Shown piece by piece: positions 34,611 to 50,894 of a DNA stretch of 64,000 bases. A program made the position numbers and the translations under genes. The stretch comes from Dorea longicatena (GTDB lineage Bacteria > Bacillota > Clostridia > Lachnospirales > Lachnospiraceae): positions 1,499,001-1,563,000 of the forward strand of contig NZ_CP102280.1 of NCBI RefSeq assembly GCF_025150085.1, written 5' to 3'. Positions within the stretch are counted from its first letter, which is position 1. Each line of letters starts with the position of its first letter. The notes beneath the pieces were generated by a model that worked only from the letters and a program-made list of their open reading frames with translations, ran no database searches and was not told the DNA's origin.

Positions 34611-37233
34611 CTTTTCCTTCCACCTTTCGAATGATAAATCTTCCTAATATCCATGCAAATCCCCACTGTACTGCCAGATACATAAGCCATATCCAGACAG
34701 CATGTTTCAGCCATGCAATTCTGACGGCATGCGTATACATCCGAGCATGAAACGTTGCTGCTGTAAAGATACTGGTCACGACTATCGTTATCAGCTCCGG
34801 CAGCCAGTAAAAGTAATACAGTTCTCTTTTCAGGAGTGATACTCGTTCTTTCTTTCGCATTCCCATACATTTCAAAAAGTCAGCCCTTGCTTTCTTATCA
34901 CTCATTTCTGATAACGATTTAATATACATCAGGAAAAGGCCGGAGATGGTCATTGTAAGCAATACGAATGTATTTATGATCAGTTTCATCATATATTCTG
35001 TCTTCAGATCATTGACTGCCGTCTTTTTTGAATACCAGCAATGTACTTCGAAATCATACTGCGCTTCATATGTATGATTCTTTTCCAGCTTTTTCATTTT
35101 CTTTTCAATTGCTTTCTGGTATTTTGGGTCTGCCTGAATCAGTACAAGCTTCGTCGGACCCTGCTTAATTGTGACACCATCTATTCGCAAGGCCTTTTCT
35201 TCTATCTTATCTCCGGTTAATATGTTCGTGTATTTCCACATTCCCTGTGCTTTTTTGAAATATGCATCCGAGAATACAACGATATTTTCCAGTTTTCCCT
35301 GACGGAAACATCCAATCAGACTTCCAATTTCTTCCCCTTCTATTGTTCTTTTCGGATATGCTTTGCTCGGCGAATATAAGGTATAATATTCACACGGAAG
35401 ACCGATATGCAAAAATGGTTTCTTCTTTCCAAATGTCCAATCCACCGGCTGTGCCTTCACGGAGCAATCCTGTTGGTGCACCAGATATATCTTCTTTCCA
35501 TTTCGATCAAGATGCATTGCTTCTTCCTTATACGATGGATCTACATATTTTTTCAATTGTTTGTATGTCGATTCAGAAATCCCGATCTGTTGTCCCTGCG
35601 GTCTTTTTCCTTGTTGCACGCCTTCGTTTTGTTCTGTCTTATCTGCATTTGCCACACGCACCATCGGATATTCTATGATTTTTGCCTGATAACCGTTCTT
35701 TATCCTATCAAAAATCGCATCATCTCCATCATCTGCAATACAGACAAAATCATACGGATACAGACTTTCCGGCTTCTCTGCAATCGTTACCGAAACTACC
35801 TGAAACAGAAAGTAAAACACTGCGCATACGTTCAATATTGTAAGTGCCAGCACATACCTTGCAGTTGTCTTTGATTTATAATACAAATGATTCCGGTTCA
35901 GCATCTGTGGCAGATATGCCGGTGTCTTTTTTGCACGTCTCAAATATCCGGCTCCTACAAAACGAATCAGTAAAAATATACCTGCAAAGAATGCAAAGAG
36001 CAGATACATACTTTCATGATTTCTCAACTGCCGGTATTCGAATATAGCGATCATACAGATTATGATTCCGGCTGTTATGAATAACTTTGTCCTCCTCTGC
36101 GGCATAGGTTCTTTTGCAATGTTTCTGATCGATGCCCTGACCAGATTGAAATCCGATACGATATCCCTGGTCGCCATCAATGCAATTATATACACTGCCA
36201 ACACCACCAACGTACCTTTCACATAAGTAAGCCACGTCACCTTTGACAGAACAATTCCTTTTGCCAGCATTGAGAAAATCACTTTCCGGAACAGAAACAT
36301 GATCATATTTCCCAATAGACCGCCGGCAATCAGCGAACACAAAAAAGCGACTGCGATCTCTATCCCAATAATCGTATACAACGCTTTTTTTCGAATTCCC
36401 AGCGTCACGAATACACTGTAATTCTGCGTCCATTTTTTCATGTAAAATACGAGAACAAACACCATCAAAAAGATGGCACATACCGCCATCGGAAGCATTG
36501 CATTCAGCAATATCCTTCCAAGTCCTTCACCCAGCAGGAAATTCTCTGCCCGGTGAGCCTTCGCCATCATCTGATATATTCCAAGTCCTGCAAAGGAGAA
36601 TGCAGAAACGATTACACCACAGAACAGCAAGAGGCCGTAATCTTTCCAGTCATATTTAAAATTGTGCCAGACCATCTGATAAAAAAGTTTGGTATAATTT
36701 CCCGGAAAATATAATCTCCTGCGTTCTTCTTCTTTTTCTTCCCGTTCCTTTTCCGCAAATATTTCTGCTGATTCCTTGGCATCTTTCCATACATCAAGCA
36801 TTTTACTGATCAACACTTCTGCCATAACAAATATCATGATGATTGCAGGAATCAGAATCGTTTTTGTTGAATTATCCGCAAGCATTCCAAATCCGGATTC
36901 ATTCACCACAATATATACACCTAGAACAACTAACGCAGCGATATTCAGATAATATTCCTTATGCAGCCACTGCGTCACTATATGTAATACAATCACGATC
37001 TGAAATACAATAAGCAGTATTAACTGTATCCGGATTATCGTAATATTCCCATCCCAGACAGACGCTGCCATCTCCGAAAGCGCTTTTATTCCTTTTGCTT
37101 TGATTCGGAAATATGCTGCATATATACTGTAATTTTTCCCTTTCAAAACCACCCACGGAAGCTGAATAAAAATCAAAATCATACCGTACATAATTGTCGA
37201 TACAATATATCTTCTTTTCTTTGTTTCTTTCAT
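34603..37233 (-). CDS. FtsX-like ABC permease, module A
   Basis: 876 residues from ATG 37233, 9 bases after AGGAGG. The N-terminus adds about four membrane helices that resemble the kinase sensor region of the modules. Then come an FtsX-type core (YHNFKYDWKDYGLLLFCGVIVSAFSF), a large extracellular domain (residues about 480-770) and a final membrane bundle. It is paired with its ATPase by overlap. BceAB-type transporters act in peptide-antibiotic resistance and sensing; that role is inferred, not shown. Confidence 0.88.
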   Translation of the reverse strand: MKETKKRRYIVSTIMYGMILIFIQLPWVVLKGKNYSIYAAYFRIKAKGIKALSEMAASVWDGNITIIRIQLILLIVFQIVIVLHIVTQWLHKEYYLNIAALVVLGVYIVVNESGFGMLADNSTKTILIPAIIMIFVMAEVLISKMLDVWKDAKESAEIFAEKEREEKEEERRRLYFPGNYTKLFYQMVWHNFKYDWKDYGLLLFCGVIVSAFSFAGLGIYQMMAKAHRAENFLLGEGLGRILLNAMLPMAVCAIFLMVFVLVFYMKKWTQNYSVFVTLGIRKKALYTIIGIEIAVAFLCSLIAGGLLGNMIMFLFRKVIFSMLAKGIVLSKVTWLTYVKGTLVVLAVYIIALMATRDIVSDFNLVRASIRNIAKEPMPQRRTKLFITAGIIICMIAIFEYRQLRNHESMYLLFAFFAGIFLLIRFVGAGYLRRAKKTPAYLPQMLNRNHLYYKSKTTARYVLALTILNVCAVFYFLFQVVSVTIAEKPESLYPYDFVCIADDGDDAIFDRIKNGYQAKIIEYPMVRVANADKTEQNEGVQQGKRPQGQQIGISESTYKQLKKYVDPSYKEEAMHLDRNGKKIYLVHQQDCSVKAQPVDWTFGKKKPFLHIGLPCEYYTLYSPSKAYPKRTIEGEEIGSLIGCFRQGKLENIVVFSDAYFKKAQGMWKYTNILTGDKIEEKALRIDGVTIKQGPTKLVLIQADPKYQKAIEKKMKKLEKNHTYEAQYDFEVHCWYSKKTAVNDLKTEYMMKLIINTFVLLTMTISGLFLMYIKSLSEMSDKKARADFLKCMGMRKKERVSLLKRELYYFYWLPELITIVVTSIFTAATFHARMYTHAVRIAWLKHAVWIWLMYLAVQWGFAWILGRFIIRKVEGKDE

Positions 37234-37246
37234 ATTCACCTGCCTC

Positions 37247-38398
37247 CTATCCGTAAATAGTAATCACAACCTCAAACCGATCCTCCTGGCTTTTACACTG
37301 AAACATTCCATTGTATTGTTCTACAATATCCCGGATATTTTTCATTCCATAACCATGTAACACTCCATCCTTTTTTTTTGATACAAAATTTTCATCTGTC
37401 TGTATTCCCGTATTTTTAGCCGCATTTACAATCTCGATGTATAAGAGCTGATTCTTCTTTTTCATTTTTATATGTATCCAGCGTTCTCCTTCTTTGATCT
37501 GCTCACACGCTTCCAACGCATTGTCCAAAAGATTTCCAAAAAGTGAAATGATCTCTCTGTCAGAAAACGGAAGCGTTGTGAATACTTCCGTGCTGATCTG
37601 CATCTGCGTCTTTTGCTTCTCTGCCTCCTTCTCTTTCTGGTTAAGAATCATATCCAGCATATGGTTTCCTGTCCAGATCTGGTAATTGTAATCCAACATG
37701 TCCCGGCTGAGTTCGTTCAGATATTCTTCCAATCCCTTCCAGTCCTGTTCCTGCGTATATTTCTTTAATGCAAGCAAATGATTCTTCATATCATGAACAA
37801 TCTTCCGGCTCTTTAACATTTCCCTATATTGTTCTTCCATCGCCTTTACTTTCATCTGGAGCATCTTCTTATCCTGCTCTTCCAGTTCAGCTCTGTGCTG
37901 TTCTGTCTCAACGTCCCATGCTTCTGCCTGAATATCAAGAAATATCCAGATTCCTATGACAGCCAGAAACAGCATCATATAACAAAACATCGGCATAGAA
38001 TAAAATTCTGCAAATCCGGTAGATGCTATAGCCATAAAGATGTAAAATGCTGCAAGATAAGTAATCCAAACAAATATATGATAATTTGTTGATTGATTCC
38101 CGTTTTTTATGCACTGGTATAATTCATACAATTCTATACTCTGAAGCAAAATCAGGAATATTAACATCAGTAAAAATATAAACGCAACTACCTGTGAATG
38201 TTTCCATTTCCACATATGCTGTTTTAAAAATGTATGATTATACATCTTGATGTAATCATTTTCCTGAAAGGTCTTAATTACATACATGTGAATCGTATTC
38301 CATTTTCTATTTATGCGCATCCACGGGAAGAAACAGTACACTTGCAATAAAATCCCCATAAAAGTATCTACTTTTCTCTTTTTTGTCCATCCATTCAT
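37247..38398 (-). CDS. GHKL histidine kinase, module A (no adjacent regulator)
   Basis: 384 residues from ATG 38398 behind GGAG. About five membrane helices, a coiled coil, the phospho-accepting region VHDMKNHLLALKKYTQEQDWKGLEEYLNELS and the GHKL ATPase (NLLDNALEACEQI, GYGMKNIRDIVEQYNG). This is the LytTR-partner kinase type. No response regulator gene precedes it, unlike module B. Its promoter carries the same repeat as module B, so the LytTR protein at 46081 may serve both. Confidence 0.88.
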   Translation of the reverse strand: MNGWTKKRKVDTFMGILLQVYCFFPWMRINRKWNTIHMYVIKTFQENDYIKMYNHTFLKQHMWKWKHSQVVAFIFLLMLIFLILLQSIELYELYQCIKNGNQSTNYHIFVWITYLAAFYIFMAIASTGFAEFYSMPMFCYMMLFLAVIGIWIFLDIQAEAWDVETEQHRAELEEQDKKMLQMKVKAMEEQYREMLKSRKIVHDMKNHLLALKKYTQEQDWKGLEEYLNELSRDMLDYNYQIWTGNHMLDMILNQKEKEAEKQKTQMQISTEVFTTLPFSDREIISLFGNLLDNALEACEQIKEGERWIHIKMKKKNQLLYIEIVNAAKNTGIQTDENFVSKKKDGVLHGYGMKNIRDIVEQYNGMFQCKSQEDRFEVVITIYG

Positions 38399-38441: not shown

Positions 38442-38447
38442 ATTGTA
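38442..38447 (-). promoter_or_regulatory. -10 element of module A
   Basis: TACAAT on the - strand, preceded by GG. It lies exactly 28 bases from the proximal repeat, the same as in module B. There is no good -35, as expected of an activator-dependent promoter. Confidence 0.65.
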
Positions 38448-38475
38448 CCATGCCTTTTCTTCTTCCGCCTTATAA

Positions 38476-38507
38476 TGGCCATGAATAGCGGGTTTTCTGA
38501 CCATGAA
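38476..38507 (-). promoter_or_regulatory. LytTR-type direct repeat upstream of module A
   Basis: TGGCCATGAA (38476) and TGACCATGAA (38498) on the + strand, 22 bases apart start to start. On the - strand they read TTCATGGTCA then TTCATGGCCA. Spacing matches the two-site arrangement bound by LytTR regulators. The same pair stands before the LytTR gene of module B. Confidence 0.78.
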
Positions 38508-38582
38508 ATTTTAAAAATATGGATCTACCGTGGTAATTACACACAGAAAAACCGCATGTTTTCTTTCATCCCCTGCTATACG

Positions 38583-38626
38583 AAGAACGGTCAGACATGT
38601 CTTGATAAACATATCTGACCGTTCTT
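38583..38626. terminator. Hairpin between Rpn-type gene and module A
   Basis: AAGAACGGTCAGACATGT and ACATATCTGACCGTTCTT form an 18-base stem with one G-U pair and an 8-base loop. There is no strong T tract on either side, but its position after the Rpn-type gene suggests a terminator. Confidence 0.6.
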
Positions 38627-38686
38627 ATAATATGACCATGCATTAGTATAAAGCTGCTACCCACAGAACCTGCCACTAACAATTTC

Positions 38687-39184
38687 TTACAGATACTTTT
38701 CGTTCTGTATCTCTTTCATAATATTCTTTAATTCTGAAATATCGATCTCTAACATTTCTGAAATTTGCTCAATCGAAAATTTATCAGACAATTTTTCTAA
38801 GAGTTCGCTTTTTCCTCTTAATTGTCCAATTTTCTCGCCTTCTATTCTTCCCTCAGTAATTCCCTCCTGCTTTATCATTATCTGTTCTTCCCATGTCTGC
38901 ATATACTTCACCTCTGTCTTTTCACTTGCTTTGATCTGACAAACTCGTCTATGCATCTCTTGAATCCGCTTACTTTTACACTTCCCTGATACTTCATCCG
39001 TACTACGTTCCATATACTTCAACAATTCTATCAATTCTGGTGACACCAGCTCGGGATGTTTGCCCCTGGTATTCAGAAGTATGATATCCAACATCGTCTT
39101 TACATTTTCCGGATCATCCATCGCTTCATCGAGCAGAAATTTATCCAGCAAGTTTAATTCTTTTAATGATTTTCTTTGGTTCAT
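38687..39184 (-). CDS. Rpn/PD-(D/E)XK transposase-family protein lacking its nuclease core
   Basis: 165 residues from ATG 39184 behind GAGAGGAG. The N-terminus (KSLKELNLLDKFLLDEAMDDPENVKTMLDIIL) and the C-terminal part (NTRGKHPELVSPELIELLKYME, KYMQTWEEQI, SIEQISEMLEI) match this family. The central catalytic segment is missing by an in-frame deletion after about residue 37. The second copy at 40497 still shows part of that segment. The protein may be made but should not cut DNA. Confidence 0.8.
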   Translation of the reverse strand: MNQRKSLKELNLLDKFLLDEAMDDPENVKTMLDIILLNTRGKHPELVSPELIELLKYMERSTDEVSGKCKSKRIQEMHRRVCQIKASEKTEVKYMQTWEEQIMIKQEGITEGRIEGEKIGQLRGKSELLEKLSDKFSIEQISEMLEIDISELKNIMKEIQNEKYL

Positions 39185-39499
39185 AAGCAGTTCTCCTCTC
39201 TTGTACAGATATAATACCTGCAAAGAAGAACTGTTTAGCTTTATGCATATGATAACACAGAATTTATATATATACCAGTATATACCGTTATCTTCTTTTA
39301 TCAGACATGTATTTATCTGTTTTTTATGATTTTCATCTTGGATTCTTACCCGATTGTTTGGGCTTGAAATAAATGAATTGGTAAATATAGATGCGTTGCA
39401 GATATTAGAATTCATCTGCGTGTTGATAGGATAACATGCTCTATTCATGCTTTCAATATATATTTTAGAAATGCTCAATTTTTGTAAATCTTCTACAAA
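39185..39499 (-). repeat. Repeat copy R2: Rpn leader plus ABC 3' flank
   Basis: About 315 bases closely similar to 41125-41444. Shared tracts include the TATATATATACCAGTATATA stretch, GGGCTTGAA and GTTGCAGAT. The distal part (39451-39499) also matches 33802-33854 after module A. It carries no gene and acts as the upstream region of the Rpn-type gene; at its far end lies what was once the tail flank of an ABC ATPase gene. Confidence 0.75.
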
Positions 39500-39572
39500 T
39501 TATCCCCGGGCAATTTTACTCCACAGACATATATTATATTGTAGACACATATATGAAAGGAAGGTTAAAAAT

Positions 39573-40424
39573 ATGGCTCAATTTACGAACCAGGCACAAC
39601 TCCGTTACGGAAATTCTGTTACTAATTCAAATATTGCCGTCGGTGAGATTCTCGAAGTATTGTCAATCTCGAAAACTGCAGTAAAAAATACCTATCATCC
39701 GGGAGGGACCGTCACCTATATTATAAGTATTATTAACTCCGGTACCGCTCCGATTACAGGACTTACACTCACAGATGACCTTGGTGCGTATGCATTTTCT
39801 ACTACTTCACTGACACCGTTAACGTATCTGGATAACACGGTAAAATACTATACAAACGGAACGTTACAGGCTGCACCTGCTGTAACCGCAGGTCCTCCGC
39901 TTATCTTCTCTGGATTAACTGTTCCCGCAAATGGCAATCTGACACTGGTCTATGAAACAGCTGTAAATCAATACGCTCCTCTCACCAATGAATCATTCAT
40001 TACCAACACGGTCACTGCAAGTGGAGACGGCATTACTTCTATCACCGCTAAGGAAACGGTAAATGCAGAAGCCTTGCCACTCTTAGGTATCACAAAATCT
40101 ATCAGTCCGGTACCTGTTACTGAAAACGGAAGCCTGACCTACACGTTCCTGATTCAGAATGAAGGAAACGTTCCTGCAAATGAATCCACGGCCGTAATCG
40201 TTACCGATACGTTTAATCCAATACTTTCTAATCTGACTGTCACCTTTAACGGAAGCACATGGACAGAAGGTGAAGACTACACTTATGATAAAACTACCGG
40301 TACTTTTGCTACTGGTGCCGGAAAAGTTACTGTTCCTGCAGCAACATTTACCGTCAACGAGACTACCGGTGAATGGAGTTCTAATCCGGGATTCAGCACT
40401 CTGACAATTACCGGAACAGTATAA
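39573..40424 (+). CDS. DUF11-domain repeat protein without signal peptide
   Basis: 283 residues from ATG 39573 behind GAAAGGAAGG. Two DUF11-like beta domains are seen: about residues 25-135 (VLSISKTAVKNTYHPGGTVTYIISIINSGTAPITGLTLTDDLG) and 150-250 (LGITKSISPVPVTENGSLTYTFLIQNEGN). No signal peptide, membrane helix or sorting motif is visible. Similar proteins in spore-formers may be surface or spore-coat components, but that is conjecture. It is the only + strand gene in this region and sits between two repeat copies. Confidence 0.8.
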   Translation: MAQFTNQAQLRYGNSVTNSNIAVGEILEVLSISKTAVKNTYHPGGTVTYIISIINSGTAPITGLTLTDDLGAYAFSTTSLTPLTYLDNTVKYYTNGTLQAAPAVTAGPPLIFSGLTVPANGNLTLVYETAVNQYAPLTNESFITNTVTASGDGITSITAKETVNAEALPLLGITKSISPVPVTENGSLTYTFLIQNEGNVPANESTAVIVTDTFNPILSNLTVTFNGSTWTEGEDYTYDKTTGTFATGAGKVTVPAATFTVNETTGEWSSNPGFSTLTITGTV

Positions 40425-40442
40425 CCATAAAGAAATGGCAGA

Positions 40443-40474
40443 AGAGACCATCCGAATAATGTCAGATGGTCTCT
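40443..40474. terminator. Hairpin after the DUF11 gene
   Basis: GAGACCATC and GATGGTCTC perfect 9-base arms around 12 bases. It is shared by the convergent DUF11 gene and the Rpn-type pseudogene; T content is modest on both sides. Confidence 0.65.
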
Positions 40475-40496
40475 CCCGTTGCGATTATTTTCCGAT

Positions 40497-41124
40497 TTAA
40501 TCTTCTGTATCATATTGTTCCTCAATGATATGTTTCACCTCTGAAACATCCATATCCAATACATCTGCAATTTCCTCAATGGACATCTTATGATTCATTT
40601 TTCTGAGCAATTCTCTTTTTTCTTTTTGTCTTTCCAGCAATTTTTCTTCCCATGCCTGCATATACTTCACCTCTGTTTTTTCACTTGCTTTAATCCGACA
40701 AACTCGTCTATGCATCTTTTGAATCCGTTCACTTTTGCACTGTTCTGACACTTCATCTGTACTGTGTTCCATATATTTCAAAAGTTCTATCAGTTCTTGG
40801 GATACCACCCGGCGGCAGCAGTTTACTGTCGATGATTCCCTGATACAAACGACTTCTTTTCGGAAGATTATGCGTATTTTCTTTCCGCGCCTCCACTTCG
40901 TATATCACATCATCTTCATCCATAGTATAGACATCTAACCGGATCTACCGATTATCCGTAGACGTTCTCTGTTCCTTCTCTGTCTGCGGTGGATGCTTCA
41001 GATTCGTCTTTTGACTTAATATGATGTCTAACATCGTCTTTACATTTTCGGGGTCATCCATTGCTTCATCGAATAGAAATTTGTCCAGCAAGTTTAATTC
41101 TTTTAATGATTTTCTTTTGTTCAT
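40497..41124 (-). pseudogene. Broken Rpn/PD-(D/E)XK transposase-family gene
   Basis: Starts like the copy at 39184 (MNKRKSLKELNLLDKFLFDEAMDDPENV) and continues through LKHPPQTEKE to an in-frame TAG at about 40945. Beyond it the same frame still encodes the family core (LDVYTMDEDDVIYEVEARKE, LPKRSRLYQGIIDSKLLPPG). A frame change with loss of the middle follows near 40808. The tail VSQELIELLKYMEHSTDEV to IEEQYDTED is intact. At least two inactivating changes are present. Confidence 0.85.
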
Positions 41125-41444
41125 AAACAGCTCTCCTTTCTTATACAGATATAACTCCTTTAAAAGAAAAACTGCTTATTTTTATGAATATCATAGCATA
41201 CATTTTATATATATACCAGTATATATGAACAACTTTCTTTATCAGGCATGTATTTATCTGTTTTCTGTGGTTTTCATTTTTGATTAATGCCCGAATATCT
41301 GGGCTTGAAGTAAATGAATTGATAAATATAGATACGTTGCAGATGCTAGAATTTATCTGCGTGCCGCTAGAATAACATGCCTGATTTTTATTTTCAATGC
41401 AATTTCTAGAAATACTGATTTTTTGTGAACTTTCTACAACTCCT
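41125..41444 (-). repeat. Repeat copy R3: Rpn leader plus module B ABC tail
   Basis: The counterpart of 39185-39499. Its distal end includes the last codons and stop of the module B ATPase gene. Together with 33802-33854 it shows that each transporter module was once followed by the same flank. Confidence 0.75.
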
Positions 41445-42228
41445 TCATCTTCCCAAGAATCTCCTGATAAAACGCTTCCTGATCCCCGCCATTTCTCATA
41501 TCTTCCAGAATCATTCCATCTTTCAGAAGAATCAGCCTGCTGCAATAACTTGCCATCTTCGGATCATGTGTTACCATAACAATTGTCTTGCCAAGTTCCC
41601 GATTGATATGACTCAGTGTATGGATTACCACATCACCGGACTTAGAGTCGAGGTTTCCGGTCGGCTCATCCGCAAGTATCAGATCCGGATTGTTGATCAA
41701 TGCTCTGGATATCGCCACTCGCTGCTTTTCACCTCCGGATAATTCATACGGCTTCTTGTTCATCAGATGTGTAATTCCGAACTGTTCTGCATATTTCTGC
41801 GATTCTTCCATACACTCTTTCGCACTCTTCTTATCCAGGATCTTCGGAAGCATGATATTTTCCCTGACGGACAGACTGTCCATCAAATAGAAGTCCTGGA
41901 ACACGAATCCGATCTTTCTCCGTCGTATGTCCGCAAATTCATCCTTCCACAAATCTTCCGTATCATGTTCTTCAAAGAACAGCTTTCCTCCGGTCTGACG
42001 GTCTATCATACCCAATAGTTTCAAAAATGTCGTCTTTCCACATCCGGATCTTCCCATAATTCCGACAAACTCCTGTCTCTGGATAGAAAAATTTAATCCC
42101 TTCAGGACATGGATCTCTTTCTTCTTTTCACCATCTTCTCCATACTGCACATAATCACGGACCAGATTCTCTGCTCTTAATACGTCTGCCGTTTTTTTAT
42201 TTTCATTCTTTTCTAATTTTTCATTCAT
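41434..42228 (-). CDS. ABC transporter ATPase, module B (MacB/BceA type)
   Basis: 264 residues. Walker A GRSGCGKTT, FVFQDFYLMDSLSV, LSGGEKQRVAISRALI, LILADEPTGNLD and MVTHDPKMA. The permease stop and this start share one base (TAATG), so translation is coupled. It is clearly paralogous to the module A ATPase at 33846. Confidence 0.93.
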   Translation of the reverse strand: MNEKLEKNENKKTADVLRAENLVRDYVQYGEDGEKKKEIHVLKGLNFSIQRQEFVGIMGRSGCGKTTFLKLLGMIDRQTGGKLFFEEHDTEDLWKDEFADIRRRKIGFVFQDFYLMDSLSVRENIMLPKILDKKSAKECMEESQKYAEQFGITHLMNKKPYELSGGEKQRVAISRALINNPDLILADEPTGNLDSKSGDVVIHTLSHINRELGKTIVMVTHDPKMASYCSRLILLKDGMILEDMRNGGDQEAFYQEILGKMKEL

Positions 42229-44912
42229 TACAAATCTGCTCCCTTTTCAATCTTTTTCACAATCGTATCTTCCAGCCACTTCAGATTCAGCCACTGTAAT
42301 ATGAAATATATAATCCAAAGTACACCTGCATTTATCACATAATTCTTCACATCATTCAGATGATAATCCCTGAGTCCAAATACAATTCCAGAATACAGTA
42401 CCGTAACTATAACGGCAATAACAGATGGGATCGTCACAAACCGGCTGATTTCCTTTTTCTCGATGCAGATCCGTTCCCTGCGATTCATTCCCAGACGGTT
42501 CATGAACTGATACCGTTTCCGCATATCCGGCAGTTCCATCTGAACCTTCATATGAAGTAGGAGCATACTGATCACAGATAAAATAATAAGCACAAATCCA
42601 TTCATCACACATTCAAGGATTCGCTCCATCTGCCGCTTTTTCGCTGCTTCTGTCTTCGTATATGTACTTTTTACAAGCGAATCAAATGACTCATCATATG
42701 CATGTTGCTTTGCAAAATCTATTGTCAACTGATCTGCTTTTTTCTGGTATTTTTCCGGTACATTTGCAAGGACAAGTTTCGTCGGCCATTCATGGATATT
42801 TTCTTCCAATACCGCATCCGACGTTTTTATTTTTTCTCCCGTATTCATGTCTGTCGTTTTCCAATAGTCTTTTATTTTGTCAAAATATGCATCAGCAAAT
42901 ACAATAAGATTCTCGTATTTTCCCTGTTTGAATGCACCGATCAGACTCGAAGTCTCGGAACCTGTAATCGTCCGTACCGGATAATAAGTCTGGTGCTCCA
43001 TTGTATCAAAGCCAAACAATGGCTGTCCGATATGCAGATTCGGATGTATCATCAACTGATAGTGATCAATTGGTTTCGCCTTTGTTCCCTGATCTTGCTG
43101 ATACACGACATAAATTTTCTTTCCGTTCTTGTCAAGATTCAGATGCTTTTTCGGTTTTTCTCCGACTGCCTTCTTTAACTTTCGATAACTGCTCTCTGAT
43201 ATACCGATATTCTGGCCTTGCTGCCAGACAAGATCAAATGGTCCTTCCAGACGTTCTGTATTATCAATCGTTGTTGCCCGGACCATCGGAATACTGGTCA
43301 CTTCTGCTTTGCATTCTTGCTTAAGCTTTTCGATAATCCCTGTATCATTACTATTCGCAAGCCATACATAGTCGTATGGGTACAGCGTATCCGTCTTATC
43401 TGCAATTCTGTTAGATACAACTTTTACCGAGAAAAAGGACATCACACATACATGTATCACGATCATAAGTGTCAGATACTTTACAGTTGTCTGGTATCTG
43501 TGTCGTATCATATGTTCTTCCGGAAGGGTTCGCAGGTATTGATCCATAGACGTTTCTTTTTTACGCAGGATCATGGCACCTATATTATACAGAAAAACAT
43601 ACAAACACAGGAAGAACCCACACAAAAGAAAGATACTCTCTGAAAATCTTCTCTGTGTATACAGATACAGGACGATTACTCCCAGCAGCCCGCTGATCAA
43701 CGCCCCTGCTTTTCTGTATATTCCCGGAATCTTCTCACTTTTCACCGCTGCATTTCTGGCATCGGCGGAACGTTCTCCTGCATGGATATCCCCAGAGATA
43801 CCAAAAGCAAACAAACAGATAACAGCTATCACGATTGCCGTGATCAGATACACCTTCCACGATACCTCTGATTTCATATCGATTTTAGGAAAATGCTGTA
43901 TAACAGCGGCATATATGCCAAACAAAATGGCTCTTCCAATCACAAATGCCGTCACCAGTGCCACCGCAAATCCGGCAAGTAATTCTCCGATCCAGGACCA
44001 GAACACGGCATTGCTCCGCATGCCAAGTGTCCGGAAAATCCCATCATCCGCCATCCGTTTTTTCCGGTAGAATACCATGACAACCGTAATCAAAAACAAT
44101 GATATCAGTACGATCACGATCAGGCAGTCCTTCATAATCTCAGTCAGCCCAAGCCCTAGTAATTCATTATCATATCCATAGCTTCCGGAAAATGCCTCTC
44201 TCATTCCAAATCCAATGAACAGAAATGCTGCCGATAACAGAACCGATACAAATAAAAAAGAAAAATCTCTCCAGTGATATTTAAAATTCTCCCACAGCAC
44301 ATGGTAATAAAGCTTCGAATATTTCCCTGGAAAATATAATCTTCTTTTCCGTTCCTGTTTATAATGCTTATCATTTTCCTGAGTTTTCAGGATCTGTTCA
44401 CCGGATTCTTCCCATTCTTCCATGGATTTATGCATCAGTAACCGTATCCCCGTCCATATCGGAAATACTGCCAGATACCCAAGTAGATACATCGGGAACA
44501 CCTGTATCGTACCCGCACTGCTCCATGAACTGTTAAGTCCAATCTCGGCCACTACCGACAGCATTGCAAATAATCCGATAAGTTCTATGATAGATAAAAA
44601 TTTTATTTCCCATCCCTTGATATTACAGATAAGCCGTATTGTTTCGATTACTTCAAGAACGACATACAGCATAACACATACCGTGAATGTTTTTGCCAGT
44701 GTATGAATATCCAGTGGTAATGCATCTGCTGCTCCGTCTAAAAACGTCGTGTTATATGTATCTGCACAACTGTGATTTCTCAACACAGCAATTACATACA
44801 TAATAAAATTCTTCCGTTCTCCCGTTATATTCATCCACGGAAACAGAAAATATATCTGAAGTATGATCCCCAGAATAATATTCATCCGTCTCTTTTTCTC
44901 TTCCATTCTCAT
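42228..44912 (-). CDS. FtsX-like ABC permease, module B
   Basis: 894 residues, organised like the module A permease: four N-terminal helices, FtsX-like core (VLWENFKYHWRDFSFLFVSVLLSAAFLF), a large extracellular domain (about 500-780) with PYDYVWLANSNDTGII and GQNIGISESSYRKLKK matching module A, and C-terminal helices. Its start overlaps the kinase stop (ATGA); ATG 44906 is an alternative with better spacing from the RBS. A cell-envelope peptide sensor or exporter role is inferred. Confidence 0.88.
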   Translation of the reverse strand: MRMEEKKRRMNIILGIILQIYFLFPWMNITGERKNFIMYVIAVLRNHSCADTYNTTFLDGAADALPLDIHTLAKTFTVCVMLYVVLEVIETIRLICNIKGWEIKFLSIIELIGLFAMLSVVAEIGLNSSWSSAGTIQVFPMYLLGYLAVFPIWTGIRLLMHKSMEEWEESGEQILKTQENDKHYKQERKRRLYFPGKYSKLYYHVLWENFKYHWRDFSFLFVSVLLSAAFLFIGFGMREAFSGSYGYDNELLGLGLTEIMKDCLIVIVLISLFLITVVMVFYRKKRMADDGIFRTLGMRSNAVFWSWIGELLAGFAVALVTAFVIGRAILFGIYAAVIQHFPKIDMKSEVSWKVYLITAIVIAVICLFAFGISGDIHAGERSADARNAAVKSEKIPGIYRKAGALISGLLGVIVLYLYTQRRFSESIFLLCGFFLCLYVFLYNIGAMILRKKETSMDQYLRTLPEEHMIRHRYQTTVKYLTLMIVIHVCVMSFFSVKVVSNRIADKTDTLYPYDYVWLANSNDTGIIEKLKQECKAEVTSIPMVRATTIDNTERLEGPFDLVWQQGQNIGISESSYRKLKKAVGEKPKKHLNLDKNGKKIYVVYQQDQGTKAKPIDHYQLMIHPNLHIGQPLFGFDTMEHQTYYPVRTITGSETSSLIGAFKQGKYENLIVFADAYFDKIKDYWKTTDMNTGEKIKTSDAVLEENIHEWPTKLVLANVPEKYQKKADQLTIDFAKQHAYDESFDSLVKSTYTKTEAAKKRQMERILECVMNGFVLIILSVISMLLLHMKVQMELPDMRKRYQFMNRLGMNRRERICIEKKEISRFVTIPSVIAVIVTVLYSGIVFGLRDYHLNDVKNYVINAGVLWIIYFILQWLNLKWLEDTIVKKIEKGADL

Positions 44913-46084
44913 TCCTCTTCCGCCCCTCTTATATCATATATCGAGATGATACAGACCAGATACTCCCCGTAAATTTTATATCGGAATATGCCGTCATATT
45001 TTCTGACAATATCCTGTATGTTCTTCATTCCATATCCATGAAGTATCTCATCTTCTTTTACTGATACAAATTCCTTCTGATTCTGCACCGGCATTTCTTT
45101 AATTGCATTTGAGGTCTCAATATATAATAAATGATTCTTCTTTTTTATCTTAATTTTTATCCAGCGCTTTTTATCTTGGATCCGTTCACAGGCTTCCAGC
45201 GCATTATCTAGAACGTTTCCAAAAAGTGAAATAATCTCCCTGTCTGAAAACGGAAGGGTTGCAAATACTTCTGTCTCAATCTGCATATCCGTCTCTTTCT
45301 CTTTTGCATCTTTCGTCTTTTGATTGAGGATCATATCCAGCATGCGGTTACCCGTCCAGATCTGATAGCTGTCATCCAGCATATCATCACTTAATTCATT
45401 CAGATACTGGTGCAGTCCTTCCCAGTCTCTCTCCTGATCGTATTTTTTCAATGCAAGCAGGTGATTTTTCATATCATGTACAACCTTCCGGCTCTTTAAC
45501 ATTTCCTGATATTTTTCTTCCAGCGCTTTCACTTTTACCTGCAGCAACTGTTCGTCCCGCTCTTTCAGTTCTGTCTTATGCTTTGCTGTCTCCGTATCCC
45601 ATGCAGCCGCCTCGATATCCAGAAACATCCAGATTCCAATAATACCTATGAATATCACCATATACATATAGATTCTAAGCTTGAACAGCGCACTGTCATC
45701 CAGATAGATGTATGAAGCATCAAGATATAAGAAAAAAAGAACGATGGCAAGAACCCAGACATACCTGTGTATATCAAACGTTTTGATCCCTTTCATATGT
45801 CTGTACAATTGCCATAGTTCGATCATCTGCATCACAATCATAAATGCTATGATCATGGTAAATGTCACTGCCGCAAAACCGGAATATTTCCATAAGATTG
45901 GATGCCCAGATAAGAAAATATAATTATATGCCTTGATGCAGCTTTCTTTCCGGAATATCTCGATCAGATACACGTGAATCGTGTGATACCCTCCGTCTAT
46001 ACGGATCCATGGAAAGAAGAAATATATTTGCAGCAGAATCCCCATACAAACATCTGCTTTTCGCTTTCTCGTCCATTCTTTCAT
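44909..46084 (-). CDS. GHKL histidine kinase, module B
   Basis: 391 residues from ATG 46084, which overlaps the regulator stop (ATGA) and follows GGAGAA. Several N-terminal membrane helices, a coiled coil (ETAKHKTELKERDEQLLQVKVKALEEKYQEML), the VHDMKNHLLALKKYDQERDWEGLHQYLNELS phosphorylation region, and NVLDNALEACERI and GYGMKNIQDIVRKYDG in the ATPase. About as similar to the module A kinase as the two permeases are to each other. Confidence 0.9.
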   Translation of the reverse strand: MKEWTRKRKADVCMGILLQIYFFFPWIRIDGGYHTIHVYLIEIFRKESCIKAYNYIFLSGHPILWKYSGFAAVTFTMIIAFMIVMQMIELWQLYRHMKGIKTFDIHRYVWVLAIVLFFLYLDASYIYLDDSALFKLRIYMYMVIFIGIIGIWMFLDIEAAAWDTETAKHKTELKERDEQLLQVKVKALEEKYQEMLKSRKVVHDMKNHLLALKKYDQERDWEGLHQYLNELSDDMLDDSYQIWTGNRMLDMILNQKTKDAKEKETDMQIETEVFATLPFSDREIISLFGNVLDNALEACERIQDKKRWIKIKIKKKNHLLYIETSNAIKEMPVQNQKEFVSVKEDEILHGYGMKNIQDIVRKYDGIFRYKIYGEYLVCIISIYDIRGAEEE

Positions 46085-46797
46085 TCTACATTTCTCCAAT
46101 ATTCCATGATCCGTGTCTTCACATCCTGAATAGTCTCTGCCCCTGCCTGAATCTTAATCCCGTCTTCCAGATAGACTGCATCCGTCGTGATCCGATCCAC
46201 ATGATCGATATTGATAATATAACTTCTTCCGGCAAATATAAAAGCCGGGCTTTTCAAATCTTCAAAAATCTGATGCAGTGCCAGACGTTCTTTGTATGCG
46301 CCATTTACCATTACAAATTCAACATACTTCTGCCCTTTGACCTTGCGGATACAGATAATGTCTTTATGATATAATTTTCTCTGGTCCGTCACCCCACCGA
46401 TCCAGAAGAAATTCTGGCTCTCTTTTTGCTTTTCCTGATAAATTTTCTGTAATACTGCCGGCAAACGTTCTTTCATATCTCTTTTCAAAATATACTGATA
46501 TGCCTCGAGGACATAACTATCCACTGCAAATTCGGCGTACGATGTCAGGAATACCAGGCAGATATCTTTTTGTTCTGCCTTTAAAATTCTTCCCAAATCG
46601 ATCCCGCTTTTCCCCGGAAGATCAATATCTGAGATAACTACATCGTAGTGCTTCTTAACTTCCAGAAATTCTTCGGCTGTTTTATATATTTCGGTGGTTA
46701 TATCCTGCACCTTAAGTTTCTCGAACTCCCGGCTAATAAGTCTTTCCACTTCCTGTCTTGTATGTTCTTCATCTTCTATCATTGCTATCTGAAACAT
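46081..46797 (-). CDS. LytTR-family response regulator
   Basis: 238 residues: receiver domain (MIEDEEHTRQEVERL, phospho-Asp in VVISDIDLPGKSGIDL, FLTSYAEFAVDSYVLEAYQYILK) and a C-terminal LytTR DNA-binding domain (IICIRKVKGQKYVEFVMVNG, FIFAGRSYIINIDHVDRI). First gene of module B. A 22-base-period direct repeat stands before its promoter and before module A, so it likely controls itself and both transporters. Confidence 0.93.
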   Translation of the reverse strand: MFQIAMIEDEEHTRQEVERLISREFEKLKVQDITTEIYKTAEEFLEVKKHYDVVISDIDLPGKSGIDLGRILKAEQKDICLVFLTSYAEFAVDSYVLEAYQYILKRDMKERLPAVLQKIYQEKQKESQNFFWIGGVTDQRKLYHKDIICIRKVKGQKYVEFVMVNGAYKERLALHQIFEDLKSPAFIFAGRSYIINIDHVDRITTDAVYLEDGIKIQAGAETIQDVKTRIMEYWRNVE

Positions 46798-46837
46798 TTA
46801 TATTTTCTCCGTATTTATTCACATAATTATTGCATTC

Positions 46838-46843
46838 ATTGTA
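46838..46843 (-). promoter_or_regulatory. -10 element of module B
   Basis: TACAAT on the - strand, preceded by GG, exactly 28 bases from the proximal repeat as in module A. No recognisable -35. Confidence 0.65.
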
Positions 46844-46871
46844 CCACGATAGTTACAAATATTGTTATAAC

Positions 46872-46906
46872 TGGCCATGAATTCCGGGATTTGTGGCCAT
46901 GAATTC
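46872..46906 (-). promoter_or_regulatory. LytTR-type direct repeat upstream of module B
   Basis: TGGCCATGAATTC at 46872 and again at 46894, identical over 13 bases and 22 bases apart. It matches the pair before module A in sequence, period and distance to the -10. Confidence 0.8.
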
Positions 46907-47006
46907 TTGAAAAAACGTCTGCTGATACAGAAAACTTACCATTGGCAAAGCTCCTTACAGATGTTTTGGCAGCCAAGCAACTCCTTACGAACACATGGCA
47001 ACACAA

Positions 47007-47050
47007 AAGAACTGCTATTTTAAGACTTTACTCCTAAAACAGCAGTTCTT
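47007..47050. terminator. Bidirectional terminator after Xaa-Pro peptidase gene
   Basis: AAGAACTGCTATTTTAG-type arm pairs with CTAAAACAGCAGTTCTT over about 17 bases with one G-U pair. TTTTTT follows on the + strand and TTCTTTTG on the - strand. Confidence 0.82.
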
Positions 47051-47124
47051 ATTTTTTCAATCATTTACTTCTAATATTTTCAACCAGCAGCTCGTACTTT
47101 TCTCATTTCCGATAGATATTCTAT

Positions 47125-49254
47125 CTATTCCGCTTTATTCAGTCCCATGTTCTCACTCGCTTTTGTCACAGGAACTTCCACCATCACAGAGTTGTCATCA
47201 ATCTCTACCGAATATGTCTTATGGATCAGGCAGTTCACCGGATCTTCTGTTGCAACAACTACTGCAAGTCTGTGTCCCGGCTCTACGGTATATCTTGTCG
47301 CATTGAGATATACGCTGTAATCATGATATTCGCCTTTTTTAAGTTCGATACTGTTCTGTGCTGTCTCCGGCGCATAACCTGCTTCCGGATTACACAGATC
47401 GGCAAATGCACGTGTGATCACGCGGTATTTTTTATGTACAGTATTGAATTCTGCCTCATCAAATGCCGGAAGATCTCCGCCATTAATGATTCCGCCTTCT
47501 TTCACCGTTGTTACCGGAACGATATTTCTTTCCGGATCTACGGTCTGGATACTGTCGAATTCTTCGTCACATACATCACAGAGAAGCACTGCAATCTCTA
47601 CATCATCCATTTTACCGGATACTTTGGAATTACCAAGCTGCATGGTCAATGTATCCACATCGTTTCTGTTTTCCGGATCGAAATCTGTTTCGATATTTCC
47701 GTCTTTTAATGCTGCCTTTAAGTTCAGGCATACCGTTCCCTGTACAGTCACTGCCTCTTCAAATGGATCTGTCACATAGCGCTGTGCCATATTCGTAGAC
47801 TTCTGTGCCATCACATCATCGAAGTTTTCTGCACTGACACCGGCTTTCTCCCAATCCGTGTCGATGACGGTCTTACTCTCCTCTTTAGATGCGAGCTTCA
47901 TGGTATGCTCTGTTTCCCATGCAGATTCTACTTCCCATTTTTTCTGGTCATAGTTTGTCTGCGCAAGTACTTCCGGCATCTTTTCGGCACCATTTTCTAC
48001 TCCGTACAGATAATGGGATATCCATTCATTTACGATATCATCATAGAATTTTCCATCGATCAGGATTCCGTAATTCTTATTCGCCATGGTCGGTGTGATA
48101 TGTGGACCCTGATGAAGGATCAGTTTCACTGTCTGTCCTGCCTGTTCGAATGCGGTATGCATCATTTCGAACTGTTTTGTAGATACATTTTCATCATTGA
48201 ATCCATGTACGATCAGCGCACTGCACTTGATCTGGTCTGCATGCAGACGGTAGTTTCCGGCTCCCCAAAATTCCGGATCATAGTCGAATCCGCATTTTAA
48301 CTGCTGAAGACTTAATTCATGATGGAATGCTGCAATATCATCCAACTGTTTCTCAGATAATGTCTCATCGTTATAACGGCTGGAACAGAAATATGCCAGG
48401 AAACTGTTCAGCATCTCTTTCGGCCAGTAGCGCTGTGCACCCTGCATATTCTGCTGTGTATACCAGTCTGCGATACCTGCAACCGGAACAATTGTTTTCA
48501 GGCCTTCTACGCCTGTGGTTGCAACTGCAAACGGCATGGTTCCGGCATAAGATCTTCCGGTCATGGCAACATTCCCATTCGCCCAGTCTGCCTTCGTCTC
48601 GATCTTTCCTTCACGGTCTGCGTAAGCCACTCTGTCGCCATGCAGCCATTCTACAACAGATTTGAATGCATCTCTTTCATACTCTGAACCGACATAGTTG
48701 AATCCATCTGAGCCAAGCGCTCCGAATCCGGCACTTACAACCACTGCAAAGCCGCGCACCAGATAATAATTGAAGTTATCCAGATTTTCATATACCATGC
48801 TGTTATTGTTCCCTTTATCCGGATAATACCAGTCTGCCGGATCTGCCTTTAATGCAAGATCCATGGCACTGATCATTCCTTCCGGGATACGTGCAGGCAC
48901 TTCTTTGTCAAGATCTGCAAAATCAATTTTGCGGTATTCTTTGCTTTCCACTTCTTTCATATGATCGTATCCGTCTGCCTGTACACCGGCACAATACGGA
49001 CGTGCCTCATATAACGTTGCCGCCTTATAATTGCCTTCTACGGCACTTCTTGGAACCTGAATGAATGCTTTAACGAGATCTCTCTTTCCGTCTCCATCCA
49101 TGTCATAGTCAGATTCCACATATACACAGTATCTTACGATACTTGATGTCGCAGGATCGTATTTTTCTCCTGTCTTTCCGTCTGTGAATTTGAAAACAGG
49201 CTGTGCAAGTCCATTTTCGAATACCGGTACTTTACTGTAATTCTTTTCTTCCAT
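47125..49254 (-). CDS. Xaa-Pro dipeptidyl-peptidase (CocE/PepX type)
   Basis: 709 residues; removes N-terminal X-Pro dipeptides from peptides. The serine nucleophile is in TGRSYAGTMPFA (GxSYxG), and the Asp and His of the triad fit HGFNDENVSTKQ and LILHQGPHITP. A C-terminal jelly-roll domain (from about residue 500) ends the family fold. No signal peptide, so cytosolic. It is monocistronic; RBS AGAGAGG precedes ATG 49254. Confidence 0.9.
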   Translation of the reverse strand: MEEKNYSKVPVFENGLAQPVFKFTDGKTGEKYDPATSSIVRYCVYVESDYDMDGDGKRDLVKAFIQVPRSAVEGNYKAATLYEARPYCAGVQADGYDHMKEVESKEYRKIDFADLDKEVPARIPEGMISAMDLALKADPADWYYPDKGNNNSMVYENLDNFNYYLVRGFAVVVSAGFGALGSDGFNYVGSEYERDAFKSVVEWLHGDRVAYADREGKIETKADWANGNVAMTGRSYAGTMPFAVATTGVEGLKTIVPVAGIADWYTQQNMQGAQRYWPKEMLNSFLAYFCSSRYNDETLSEKQLDDIAAFHHELSLQQLKCGFDYDPEFWGAGNYRLHADQIKCSALIVHGFNDENVSTKQFEMMHTAFEQAGQTVKLILHQGPHITPTMANKNYGILIDGKFYDDIVNEWISHYLYGVENGAEKMPEVLAQTNYDQKKWEVESAWETEHTMKLASKEESKTVIDTDWEKAGVSAENFDDVMAQKSTNMAQRYVTDPFEEAVTVQGTVCLNLKAALKDGNIETDFDPENRNDVDTLTMQLGNSKVSGKMDDVEIAVLLCDVCDEEFDSIQTVDPERNIVPVTTVKEGGIINGGDLPAFDEAEFNTVHKKYRVITRAFADLCNPEAGYAPETAQNSIELKKGEYHDYSVYLNATRYTVEPGHRLAVVVATEDPVNCLIHKTYSVEIDDNSVMVEVPVTKASENMGLNKAE

Positions 49255-49364
49255 TGTAAAAACCTCTCTGATTCAATATTTTACCTAAGGAATATTGTAC
49301 CACGCATTTCGGAACCGGGCAAATTTTCTTTCTGAAAATATCTGGAAATGACTGATACAGAAAA

Positions 49365-49400
49365 ATGCGTAAAAACAGTTCTTTATCTGTTTTTACGCAT
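49365..49400 (-). terminator. Terminator of the ATPase gene
   Basis: Perfect 14-base arms ATGCGTAAAAACAG and CTGTTTTTACGCAT with an 8-base loop. On the - strand TTTTTC follows. It directly adjoins the stop codon of the gene at 49401. Confidence 0.88.
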
Positions 49401-50894
49401 CTATAATATATCCAAAATCGTATCATACACTGACGGATTGTCTTTGATCACAATCGCCAGTTTTTCTTTTGCCTGATTCAGCTGATGAAAAAGAAGTCTC
49501 ACATTTGATTTTCTGCCTTCACTCGTTGTTATACGGGTTATTTCATAAGAAGCTTCACTAATCTTTCCCGCACGGAGATAACCGTCCTTATCATAATAAT
49601 ACTGTTCATCCAGTACGGCTACCAGGCGGTTCACATCCCGCATTGCCGAATTCTGATAGCGATATCCCCGTCTCGCATAGCCTTGCATCAAACATACTGC
49701 TTCTGTATCATCATTCGCATACACCACTTCAATATTAGGATAGCCCTTCTGCCCTTTTCTCCGCGACAGATCCAGCATGTTCTGAATAAAGGAAGAAAGT
49801 TCTGCATTTGTACGGATACGGTTCGTCATATGAAAGCTCTGCACATCCGGCAGGCTCGCAAGTCTTTGCGATATTTCACGATCCAGTTCTTTAGGCGAGA
49901 TCATGTCTTCCGTATCACTGGAGAAGATTATCGGAATCTGCTTTTTACATTCTTCTAATATCTTTAATTGCTCCACAGAAAGCAGATGTGCCTCATCCAC
50001 CAGAATAGCACTGTATGGCTTTAAGAATGTGTCAAACGCTTCTTCCGCACACACATTTTCTGTCATCGTCTGCTTTGCTGCCTGAAGTGATAACTGACGA
50101 TCCGACAGAAAATCAATCCGGCGCAGACGTTTATGTAAAATTCTCCAGTCCTCTCCTGATTCTCCGCAATGAATCATGCAGACTCTCTGACGTACCGACA
50201 ACTTCATCGCAAGATCATACAGAAGCAATGTCTTTCCCGTCCCCGGAAGTCCGCTGAACCAGTAATAGTCGGAATATTTTGCTCGGATTCCTTTCAGGAT
50301 CTGTCGTTCGATATCTCTTTGCTGTGCCGTCAGAAAATATTCTTTCTGTAAAAAGCGTTCCGGCTCTCTGAGCGGTGAGATCAGATAGAGTTCTGCGCGG
50401 AACAGTTCTTCGATATTCCCGTCATAATCCGGACTTTCTCTTTTCAAAGCTCTGCATAATTCGTCCCAGTCTGCCTCTGCGATATGATCATGATTCGTCA
50501 GTCTTACCAGACGGTTCTGGCTGCTGATATAAGTATACGAATGAATCGTTCTTCCAAGCACCGACAGATAATATCGATTCTGCAGAAGCTGTCTGCAGAT
50601 AGCCTCATCTGATACCACACCACTTTTTAACTCAATATTTACAATCTGGTCTTCTTTGATCTGAAGAAGATCAAATTCTTTTCCCAGTCTCGGAATCTGA
50701 AACGAATAAAAGAAACGAAGTGCATATACATCCTCCATACAGGTTTCCAATTCGGCTGTCAGTGCTTTCATACTTTCCAGTTCCCATTCCCGCATTTTCA
50801 GAAAATAGTCTCTTCCGGATAACTGACGTTCCAGTTTTTGCAGCTGTTCGATATTCTGATTTCTTGTGATCGTATAAATGGATATGGATTTCAT
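49401..50894 (-). CDS. DUF2075-like AAA ATPase with nuclease-like N-terminus
   Basis: 497 residues. Residues 60-95 (IPRLGKEFDLLQIKEDQIVNIELKSG) show a PD-(D/E)XK-like pattern: E73-F-D75, 12 residues, E88-L-K90. The second part is a P-loop ATPase: Walker A SGLPGTGKT (214-222), Walker B AILVDEAHLL, sensor IIFSSDTED and a superfamily-1-like tail. This fits DUF2075/Schlafen-like ATPases fused to a nuclease. It overlaps the AlkD-like gene by 4 bases (ATGA), implying a common task. DNA repair or defence is possible; function is unknown. Confidence 0.75.
   Translation of the reverse strand: MKSISIYTITRNQNIEQLQKLERQLSGRDYFLKMREWELESMKALTAELETCMEDVYALRFFYSFQIPRLGKEFDLLQIKEDQIVNIELKSGVVSDEAICRQLLQNRYYLSVLGRTIHSYTYISSQNRLVRLTNHDHIAEADWDELCRALKRESPDYDGNIEELFRAELYLISPLREPERFLQKEYFLTAQQRDIERQILKGIRAKYSDYYWFSGLPGTGKTLLLYDLAMKLSVRQRVCMIHCGESGEDWRILHKRLRRIDFLSDRQLSLQAAKQTMTENVCAEEAFDTFLKPYSAILVDEAHLLSVEQLKILEECKKQIPIIFSSDTEDMISPKELDREISQRLASLPDVQSFHMTNRIRTNAELSSFIQNMLDLSRRKGQKGYPNIEVVYANDDTEAVCLMQGYARRGYRYQNSAMRDVNRLVAVLDEQYYYDKDGYLRAGKISEASYEITRITTSEGRKSNVRLLFHQLNQAKEKLAIVIKDNPSVYDTILDIL

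Follow-up and report, generated by a model that had tools for sequence, protein, structure and literature searches.

Introduction

Two-component systems are usually taught as insulated pairs. In the BceRS-BceAB system, a peptide-antibiotic detoxification module of Bacillus subtilis, a kinase and a response regulator accompany an ABC ATPase and a permease of the FtsX type that has a large loop between transmembrane segments 7 and 8 (TM7 and TM8), and regulators of the BceR type are OmpR-like. BceAB-type permeases have 10 TM segments and an external loop of >170 amino acids (aa) between TM7 and TM8. That one system can regulate two Bce-type transporters and that paralogous Bce modules can engage in cross-talk is already known: BraRS of Staphylococcus aureus controls the Bce-type transporters BraDE and VraDE (PMC5786555), and the paralogous PsdRSAB and ApsRSAB modules of Lacticaseibacillus paracasei are cross-regulated via similar sites (PMC10858260). 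Here we describe four related sensor-transporter modules, A to D, of Dorea longicatena. Modules A and B lie in the 64,000-nucleotide stretch analyzed (the window, C1:1499001-1563000, where C1 is the single contig of the 2.92-Mb genome), and we consider it quite probable that all four modules form a many-to-one hub, signaling via the one LytTR regulator encoded in module B.

BraRS has one kinase and, presumably, no GHKL/LytTR pair, whereas four kinases and four transporters are found here. Each of the PsdRSAB and ApsRSAB modules is described with its own regulator (PMC10858260), while three of the four modules here are without one. The genes are of the kinds found in BceRS-BceAB, and by hydropathy count only, the permeases of modules C and D have 10 segments, of which the seventh and the eighth are >230 aa apart. 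Unlike BceR, the regulator is of the LytTR type; unlike BceB, permeases A and B carry about four extra N-terminal segments; and unlike BceS, described as an intramembrane kinase with two TM segments and a short loop (PMC3023708), the kinases are GHKL/AgrC-like with three hydrophobic segments. An AgrC-like transmitter, a LytTR regulator, and paired direct repeats are shared with AgrC-AgrA and other GHKL/LytTR pairs, which differ in that the targets here are BceB-like transporter operons and several kinases are present per regulator. The AtcS-AtcR system of Treponema denticola is encoded beside an ABC transporter and pairs a LytTR regulator with a kinase in which no sensing domain is predicted, and the authors suggest BceS-like sensing; the available part of that report has a single kinase with a single regulator and mentions no group of modules that share sites (PMC12070737).

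Results

Paired repeats precede four kinase-transporter operons

The genes of modules A and B are on the minus strand, so that the repeat sites lie upstream of them. A 32-base pattern matched the window (up to three mismatches) only at positions 38476-38507 (site A) and 46872-46903 (site B), given in plus-strand coordinates. On the minus strand each site reads TTCATGGYCA-N12-TTCATGGYCA, i.e., 10-bp direct repeats with a 12-bp gap and a period of 22. Putative LytTR site B, 5' of the regulator gene, consists of two copies of TTCATGGCCA, and putative LytTR site A reads TTCATGGTCA-N12-TTCATGGCCA. In both promoters a TGG-extended TACAAT −10 lies 28 bases from the proximal repeat (46838-46843 in B and 38442-38447 in A, both minus strand). 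An earlier note on this DNA had claimed direct repeats of period 22 at 28 bases from TACAAT in both modules, and its coordinates and spacing were exact.

Shuffling of the window gave an expectation of 0.06 matches, and two matches were reached in 0 of 100 shuffles; this figure alone exaggerates the surprise, since the pattern was derived from the sites themselves. The stronger fact is the match of sites to kinase operons. When the whole genome was scanned with the 32-base pattern, a check that the note had proposed, four sites were found with up to three mismatches allowed, every one of them with zero mismatches; the reversed control gave none, and base composition predicts ∼2e-5 exact sites per genome. 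The two further sites (C1:1439331-1439362 in module C and C1:1444109-1444140 in module D) lie ∼55 to 60 kb outside the window, and each stands at the head of an operon that encodes a kinase, an FtsX-type permease, and an ABC ATPase but no regulator (module C, kinase to C1:1440588, permease at 1440579-1442711, ATPase at 1442718-1443479; module D, kinase to C1:1445354, permease at 1445368-1447362, ATPase at 1447310-1448116; coordinates are open reading frame [ORF] ends). All four sites have a kinase of the kinase B type, and all four such kinases have a site. The two-sensor, two-transporter circuit of the earlier note was thus too small, as there are four sensors and four transporters. No further regulon member was found in the whole genome, either at up to three mismatches or with exact repeats and gaps of 9 to 15; a half site at C1:1460448, inside a permease gene, was disregarded.

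The −10 of modules C and D is TATAAT, TGn-extended and 28 bases from the repeat, so that both the spacing of 28 and the TGn-extended −10 occur in all four modules. Between A, B, C, and D the repeats are identical at 19 to 20 of 20 positions. In the comparison of A with B, the repeats agree at 19/20 positions and the 12-bp gap at 8/12, while the flanks agree at 32 of 100 bases upstream and at 9 of 28 between repeat and −10, at or near chance. Because the repeats were kept while the flanks diverged, the A and B sites look to be under selection rather than just freshly copied. Coding constraint was considered as the reason for repeat conservation, as a reading frame, followed by eye, crosses the site into kinases A, C, and D; it was rejected because the differences from A to C in the 12-bp gap alter amino acids and the frame stops in B. 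The hexamers 17 nucleotides (nt) upstream of the −10 (AGGCGG in A and AACAAT in B) are poor as −35 elements, and an activator therefore seems to be needed.

Transmitters are conserved and sensors diverged in the four kinases

Kinase B (44909-46084, minus strand) is a GHKL kinase with an AgrC-like transmitter and an N-terminal membrane sensor domain. Its ATG overlaps the regulator stop, and the ORF, with an earlier TTG, extends to 46099. Kinase A (37247-38398, minus strand) has the same architecture without a regulator gene upstream; by coordinates, the TAG counted in its match is the stop codon of kinase A itself at 37247, with spacer beyond it. A search of the genome with kinase B returned four full-length relatives, A to D, itself included (E of 1.6e-130 or better); the next matches were the sensor domain of permease B (2.5e-16) and a kinase beside a second LytTR gene, LytTR gene 1 (5e-14).

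Over an 85-residue stretch around the phospho-histidine, with kinase B as the reference, kinases A, C, and D are identical at 65, 64, and 63 of 85 residues. Twenty background kinases (18 in loci L055 to L071 and 2 in L088, with one weaker L059 kinase match left out) are identical at 15 to 33 residues over 77 to 85 aligned positions. The sensors match that of kinase B at 62/158 (A), 46/148 (C), and 47/151 (D) positions. This pattern suggests that inputs diverged while the regulator-facing part of the kinases stayed. The phospho-histidine and the N- and G-box positions, which we take to be the H, N, and G boxes of such kinases, are invariant across A to D. With all four kinase frames open and these boxes kept, loss of function in A, C, or D was rejected as the default.

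Kinases A and B match the GHKL family HATPase_c_5, and by hydropathy each of the four kinases has three hydrophobic segments above threshold, at four positions in all. A kinase profile matches AgrC 6e52 (E of 3e-4). The AgrC model NF046015 matches kinase B with an E value of 1.1e-11 and 44.6 bits against a cut-off of 500, so far under it that kinase B is not AgrC itself.

The module B regulator is the best candidate reader of the sites

The module B regulator (46081-46797, minus strand; 238 aa), the sole regulator gene in the four modules, consists of a receiver and a LytTR domain (PF00072, E of 8.7e-13; PF04397, E of 2.2e-10; both above cut-off). As the note had claimed of modules A and B, the LytTR gene is in module B only. 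A tblastn search with the regulator on own-genome DNA (∼183 kb) revealed no regulator remnant near module A; apart from weak matches, only the regulator itself and LytTR gene 1 were hit. The genome was found to contain three LytTR genes, of which only that of module B adjoins a repeat site. Downstream of LytTR gene 1 (C1:223445-224158) lies a kinase gene of its own, with a transmitter identical to that of kinase B at only 16/85 residues; LytTR gene 2 (C1:2843396-2844115) has no kinase among ORFs of ≥120 aa in 10 kb.

LytTR sites are described as pairs of 9-bp direct repeats 10 to 13 bp apart, which for most LytTR activators lie upstream of the −35 (PMC11347149). The geometry of the sites here, 10-bp repeats with a 12-bp gap, fits this rule in all four cases. 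In the 200 nt 5' of either other LytTR gene, no 9-mer direct repeat (one mismatch allowed) was found at 19 to 24 bp, while the same test on the upstream regions of A and B was positive. The module B regulator is therefore the best candidate binder of the four sites, as judged from sequence. The earlier note had named as a refutation a second LytTR gene elsewhere that specifically binds the module A site; two other LytTR genes do exist, and neither has such a repeat in the 200 nt upstream.

Three BceB-like permeases share a sensor domain with the kinases

Permease B (42228-44912, minus strand; 894 aa) has an N-terminal sensor-like domain of four hydrophobic segments followed by a BceB-like part of 10, with a large gap between the seventh and eighth segments that is presumed to be the external domain. 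Permease A (34603-37239, minus strand; 878 aa) likewise has an N-terminal domain like the kinase sensor. ABC ATPase B (41434-42228, minus strand) is of the LolD/MacB/BceA type, with matches under the NCBIfam cut-offs, and ABC ATPase A lies at 33846-34610 (minus strand). A profile of five permeases from the genome matches BceB (7tcg, E of 1.3e-15) and PsdB (9ugg, 3e-13); these matches begin at profile positions 179 to 181, and that to 7tcg covers positions 179 to 535. Permeases A and B and the fifth permease (C1:2742575-2745244) have 14 to 15 segments by hydropathy count only, the extra ones at the N terminus.

Profile comparison shows homology between the kinase sensor and the N-terminal domain of permeases A and B (probability of 99.2%; E of 3e-18). 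For comparison, the values for two other segments of permeases and for the sensor of the kinase next to LytTR gene 1 were 0.1, 2.8, and 0.3%. The domain lies at window positions 44409-44912 and 36736-37239 (minus strand) and, in the fifth permease, at C1:2744741-2745244 (locus L034). The fifth BceB-like permease has neither a kinase match nor a repeat site alongside.

The presumed external domain (permease B residues 501 to 765) is 40 to 55% identical in comparisons of permeases A, B, C, and the fifth, more than TM1 to TM7 (18 to 30%) or TM8 to TM10 (20 to 33%). In A, B, and the fifth, a 45-residue linker before TM1 is conserved to about the same degree as the external domain. Permease D has lower identities throughout (external domain, 26 to 31%). 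The external domain is reported as the least conserved part in eight BceB proteins compared, the reverse of the conservation seen here (PMC3023708). AlphaFold predictions from two-row alignments were uninformative (mean pLDDT of 41.8 for kinase B and 36.0 for permease B).

Relatives in other genomes

Of 397 genomes of the family, only that of D. longicatena itself has the exact site pattern. No exact site and no kinase B-like protein (E ≤ 1e-20) was found in either of two congeners. Counts of relatives in the family and order are lower bounds, as only the best few candidates per genome were scored. Kinase relatives (E ≤ 1e-30) are present in at least 18 of the 397 genomes, own included. In the 17 regions that hold all 18 nonown kinase matches, a response regulator is near in 17 of 17 (an ORF intervenes in L066), a permease match in 0 of 17, and weak ATPase matches in two; these regions were rejected as comparators of the circuit, being ordinary kinase-regulator pairs.

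The sensor domain is rare: at least 9 of 397 family genomes (E ≤ 0.001) and at least 2 of 392 genomes of an order draw (E ≤ 1e-4) have it, with the own genome included in both draws. Seven of the eight other family genomes were examined, a weak, stop-containing match in G386 being left out. In six of the seven, the domain is on a permease with an ATPase and no kinase match in the stretch, some stretches being short contigs. In the remaining one (G231, locus L088), a regulator, a kinase, a permease, an ATPase, and a second kinase follow in that order. The two kinases of this cluster (L088:1161-6261), which has one LytTR regulator, diverge in their sensors but share nearly the same transmitter (90% DNA identity over 573 nt). 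The frame of the first kinase continues into that of the permease, and the ATPase is split, which is either real or an assembly error. Several sensors per regulator thus appear to recur in L088, an independent sign of sensor swapping.

The gene order of L088, a distant relative, is that of module B, which supports regulator loss from A, C, and D. For module A such loss, which the earlier note had proposed, is likely, and a gain of the gene in module B is also possible. Among named genomes there was one weak relative of the regulator (26%). On plasmids, a search with kinase D gave eight records, matched in the transmitter half only. Viral contigs held no relative and no site, and phage records gave no match to window positions 40000-50000.

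Genomic setting of the modules

Modules C and D lie inside an A+T-rich stretch of ∼24 kb (about C1:1426000-1450000) with 27 to 37% G+C per kb; its flanks have mostly 37 to 47%, a second A+T-rich patch lies at ∼1460 to 1466 kb, and modules A and B have ∼35 to 41%. This island contains several FtsX/ABC transporters, an Abi_2 gene, an ECF sigma/anti-sigma pair, and, at its right end, an integrase-like gene whose PF00589 score (26.6 bits) falls slightly short of the cut-off of 27.1.

Just upstream of site D, a 47-codon ORF (L008:13503-13646, plus strand) matches ATPase tails, as would be seen if the ATPase tail, promoter, and kinase had been copied together. No peptide gene was found in the four intergenic stretches among ORFs of 20 to 80 aa with a ribosome-binding-site-like motif, AgrB-type genes not being part of that search; the two ORFs that turned up are both the same ATPase-tail fragment. 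Between repeat and −10 (L008:9363-9390 versus L008:14141-14168), 7 of the 28 positions differ between C and its near-twin D; the C and D flanks around that stretch agree at 98/100 and 24/24 positions, yet the distant A matches D at 26/28. This pattern looks like local conversion. Between modules A and B lie two related fragments that share a common stretch of sequence (38687-39478 and 40497-40808, minus strand), which we take to resemble Rpn/transposase-type genes and which have no Pfam match above cut-off, and a DUF11 protein (39447-40424, plus strand).

Discussion

These results suggest a circuit in which a signal at any of four sensor-transporter pairs would activate its kinase. The four paralogous GHKL kinases would share a single target, the LytTR regulator of module B, and after phosphorylation this regulator would bind the paired 10-bp repeats (about two helical turns apart) 5' of each operon and recruit polymerase to an extended −10 promoter that lacks a good −35. 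Any one input would thereby raise all four transporter operons, each presumably co-transcribed, and the regulator itself. Modules A, C, and D would be regulator-less copies in which promoter and leader lead straight into the kinase. By analogy with Bce-type systems, the input is likely a peptide antibiotic or a similar cell-envelope stress, sensed together with the transporter. That one LytTR regulator runs module A in trans, as the earlier note had proposed, is the best-supported reading, with binding predicted from the sites; it is strengthened by two more regulator-less modules with the site, by the conserved transmitters, and by the other LytTR genes that are without sites.

Several observations weigh against such a circuit. 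The promoter regions of C and D are near-copies (98 of 100 bases upstream), and A and D agree at 26 of 28 bases between repeat and −10; the four sites are thus not four independent observations, and A versus B is the cleanest pair. Transmitter conservation is partly due to common ancestry, the contrast between sensor and transmitter less so. One congener (G397) has a single site with three mismatches, as does its reversed control. L088 holds the only other module found with such a kinase beside a LytTR gene, and no such repeats lie 5' of its regulator; conservation of the site thus does not extend to the wider family. Finally, the LytTR gene at C1:2843396, without an adjacent kinase, may be an alternative binder.

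It is unlikely that this LytTR gene, or another protein, reads some or all of the sites while the module B regulator controls its own operon only or co-binds. Its lack of a kinase neighbor would suit such a role, but neither other LytTR gene has a suitable direct repeat within 200 nt upstream, and the sites occur solely with kinases of the module B type, one of them directly 5' of the module B regulator, as in autoregulation. The repeats might instead be operators for repression or serve another stimulus logic, e.g., with the regulator repressing the modules until a signal arrives. Some LytTR proteins do repress, CoxC via repeats that overlap the −35, but the repeats here end 28 nt 5' of the extended −10, clear of the core promoter, which is the usual activator position (PMC11347149). 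With the poor −35 hexamers of A and B, for which an activator seems to be needed, we regard repression as improbable. The paralogy of the modules and the promoter likeness of C to D and of A to D are what would be expected if the promoter match were a duplication relic, nonfunctional in A, C, or D, with kinases that are themselves relics or signal to another regulator. Divergence of the A and B flanks around repeats and a spacing that were kept argues otherwise, as do open kinase frames with catalytic residues intact and transmitters far more alike than the sensors, and we consider this explanation very unlikely.

The setting of C and D invites the idea of mobile cassettes that may exploit a resident regulator. 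In a broader and more tentative form, which we regard as possible but doubtful, regulator-less cassettes (paired-repeat promoter, kinase, permease, and ATPase), some of them on an A+T-rich island by an integrase-like gene, would dock onto one resident LytTR regulator. Their kinases would vary mainly in the sensor, and the domain shared by sensor and permease would pair each kinase with its own transporter like-to-like, unlike BceS-BceB.

Among the literature matches listed (titles and abstract starts, with few subscription journals), none concerns LytTR/GHKL control of BceAB-like transporters by several kinases. On that basis the combination found here seems new: BceB-like transporters run by a GHKL/LytTR system, three of four kinases without a regulator, a sharp set of four operon sites, and a sensor domain common to kinase and permease. 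The occurrence of the kinase sensor as the N-terminal domain of two permeases offers a lead on how GHKL kinases may couple to BceB-like transporters. The modules also offer a compact example from nature: only one of the four kinases has a regulator next to it, and a single regulator appears to collect the output of all four. The sites are sharp enough to predict a regulon of exactly four operons, and experiments can thus ask directly how signals are integrated across several pumps of the peptide-antibiotic type.

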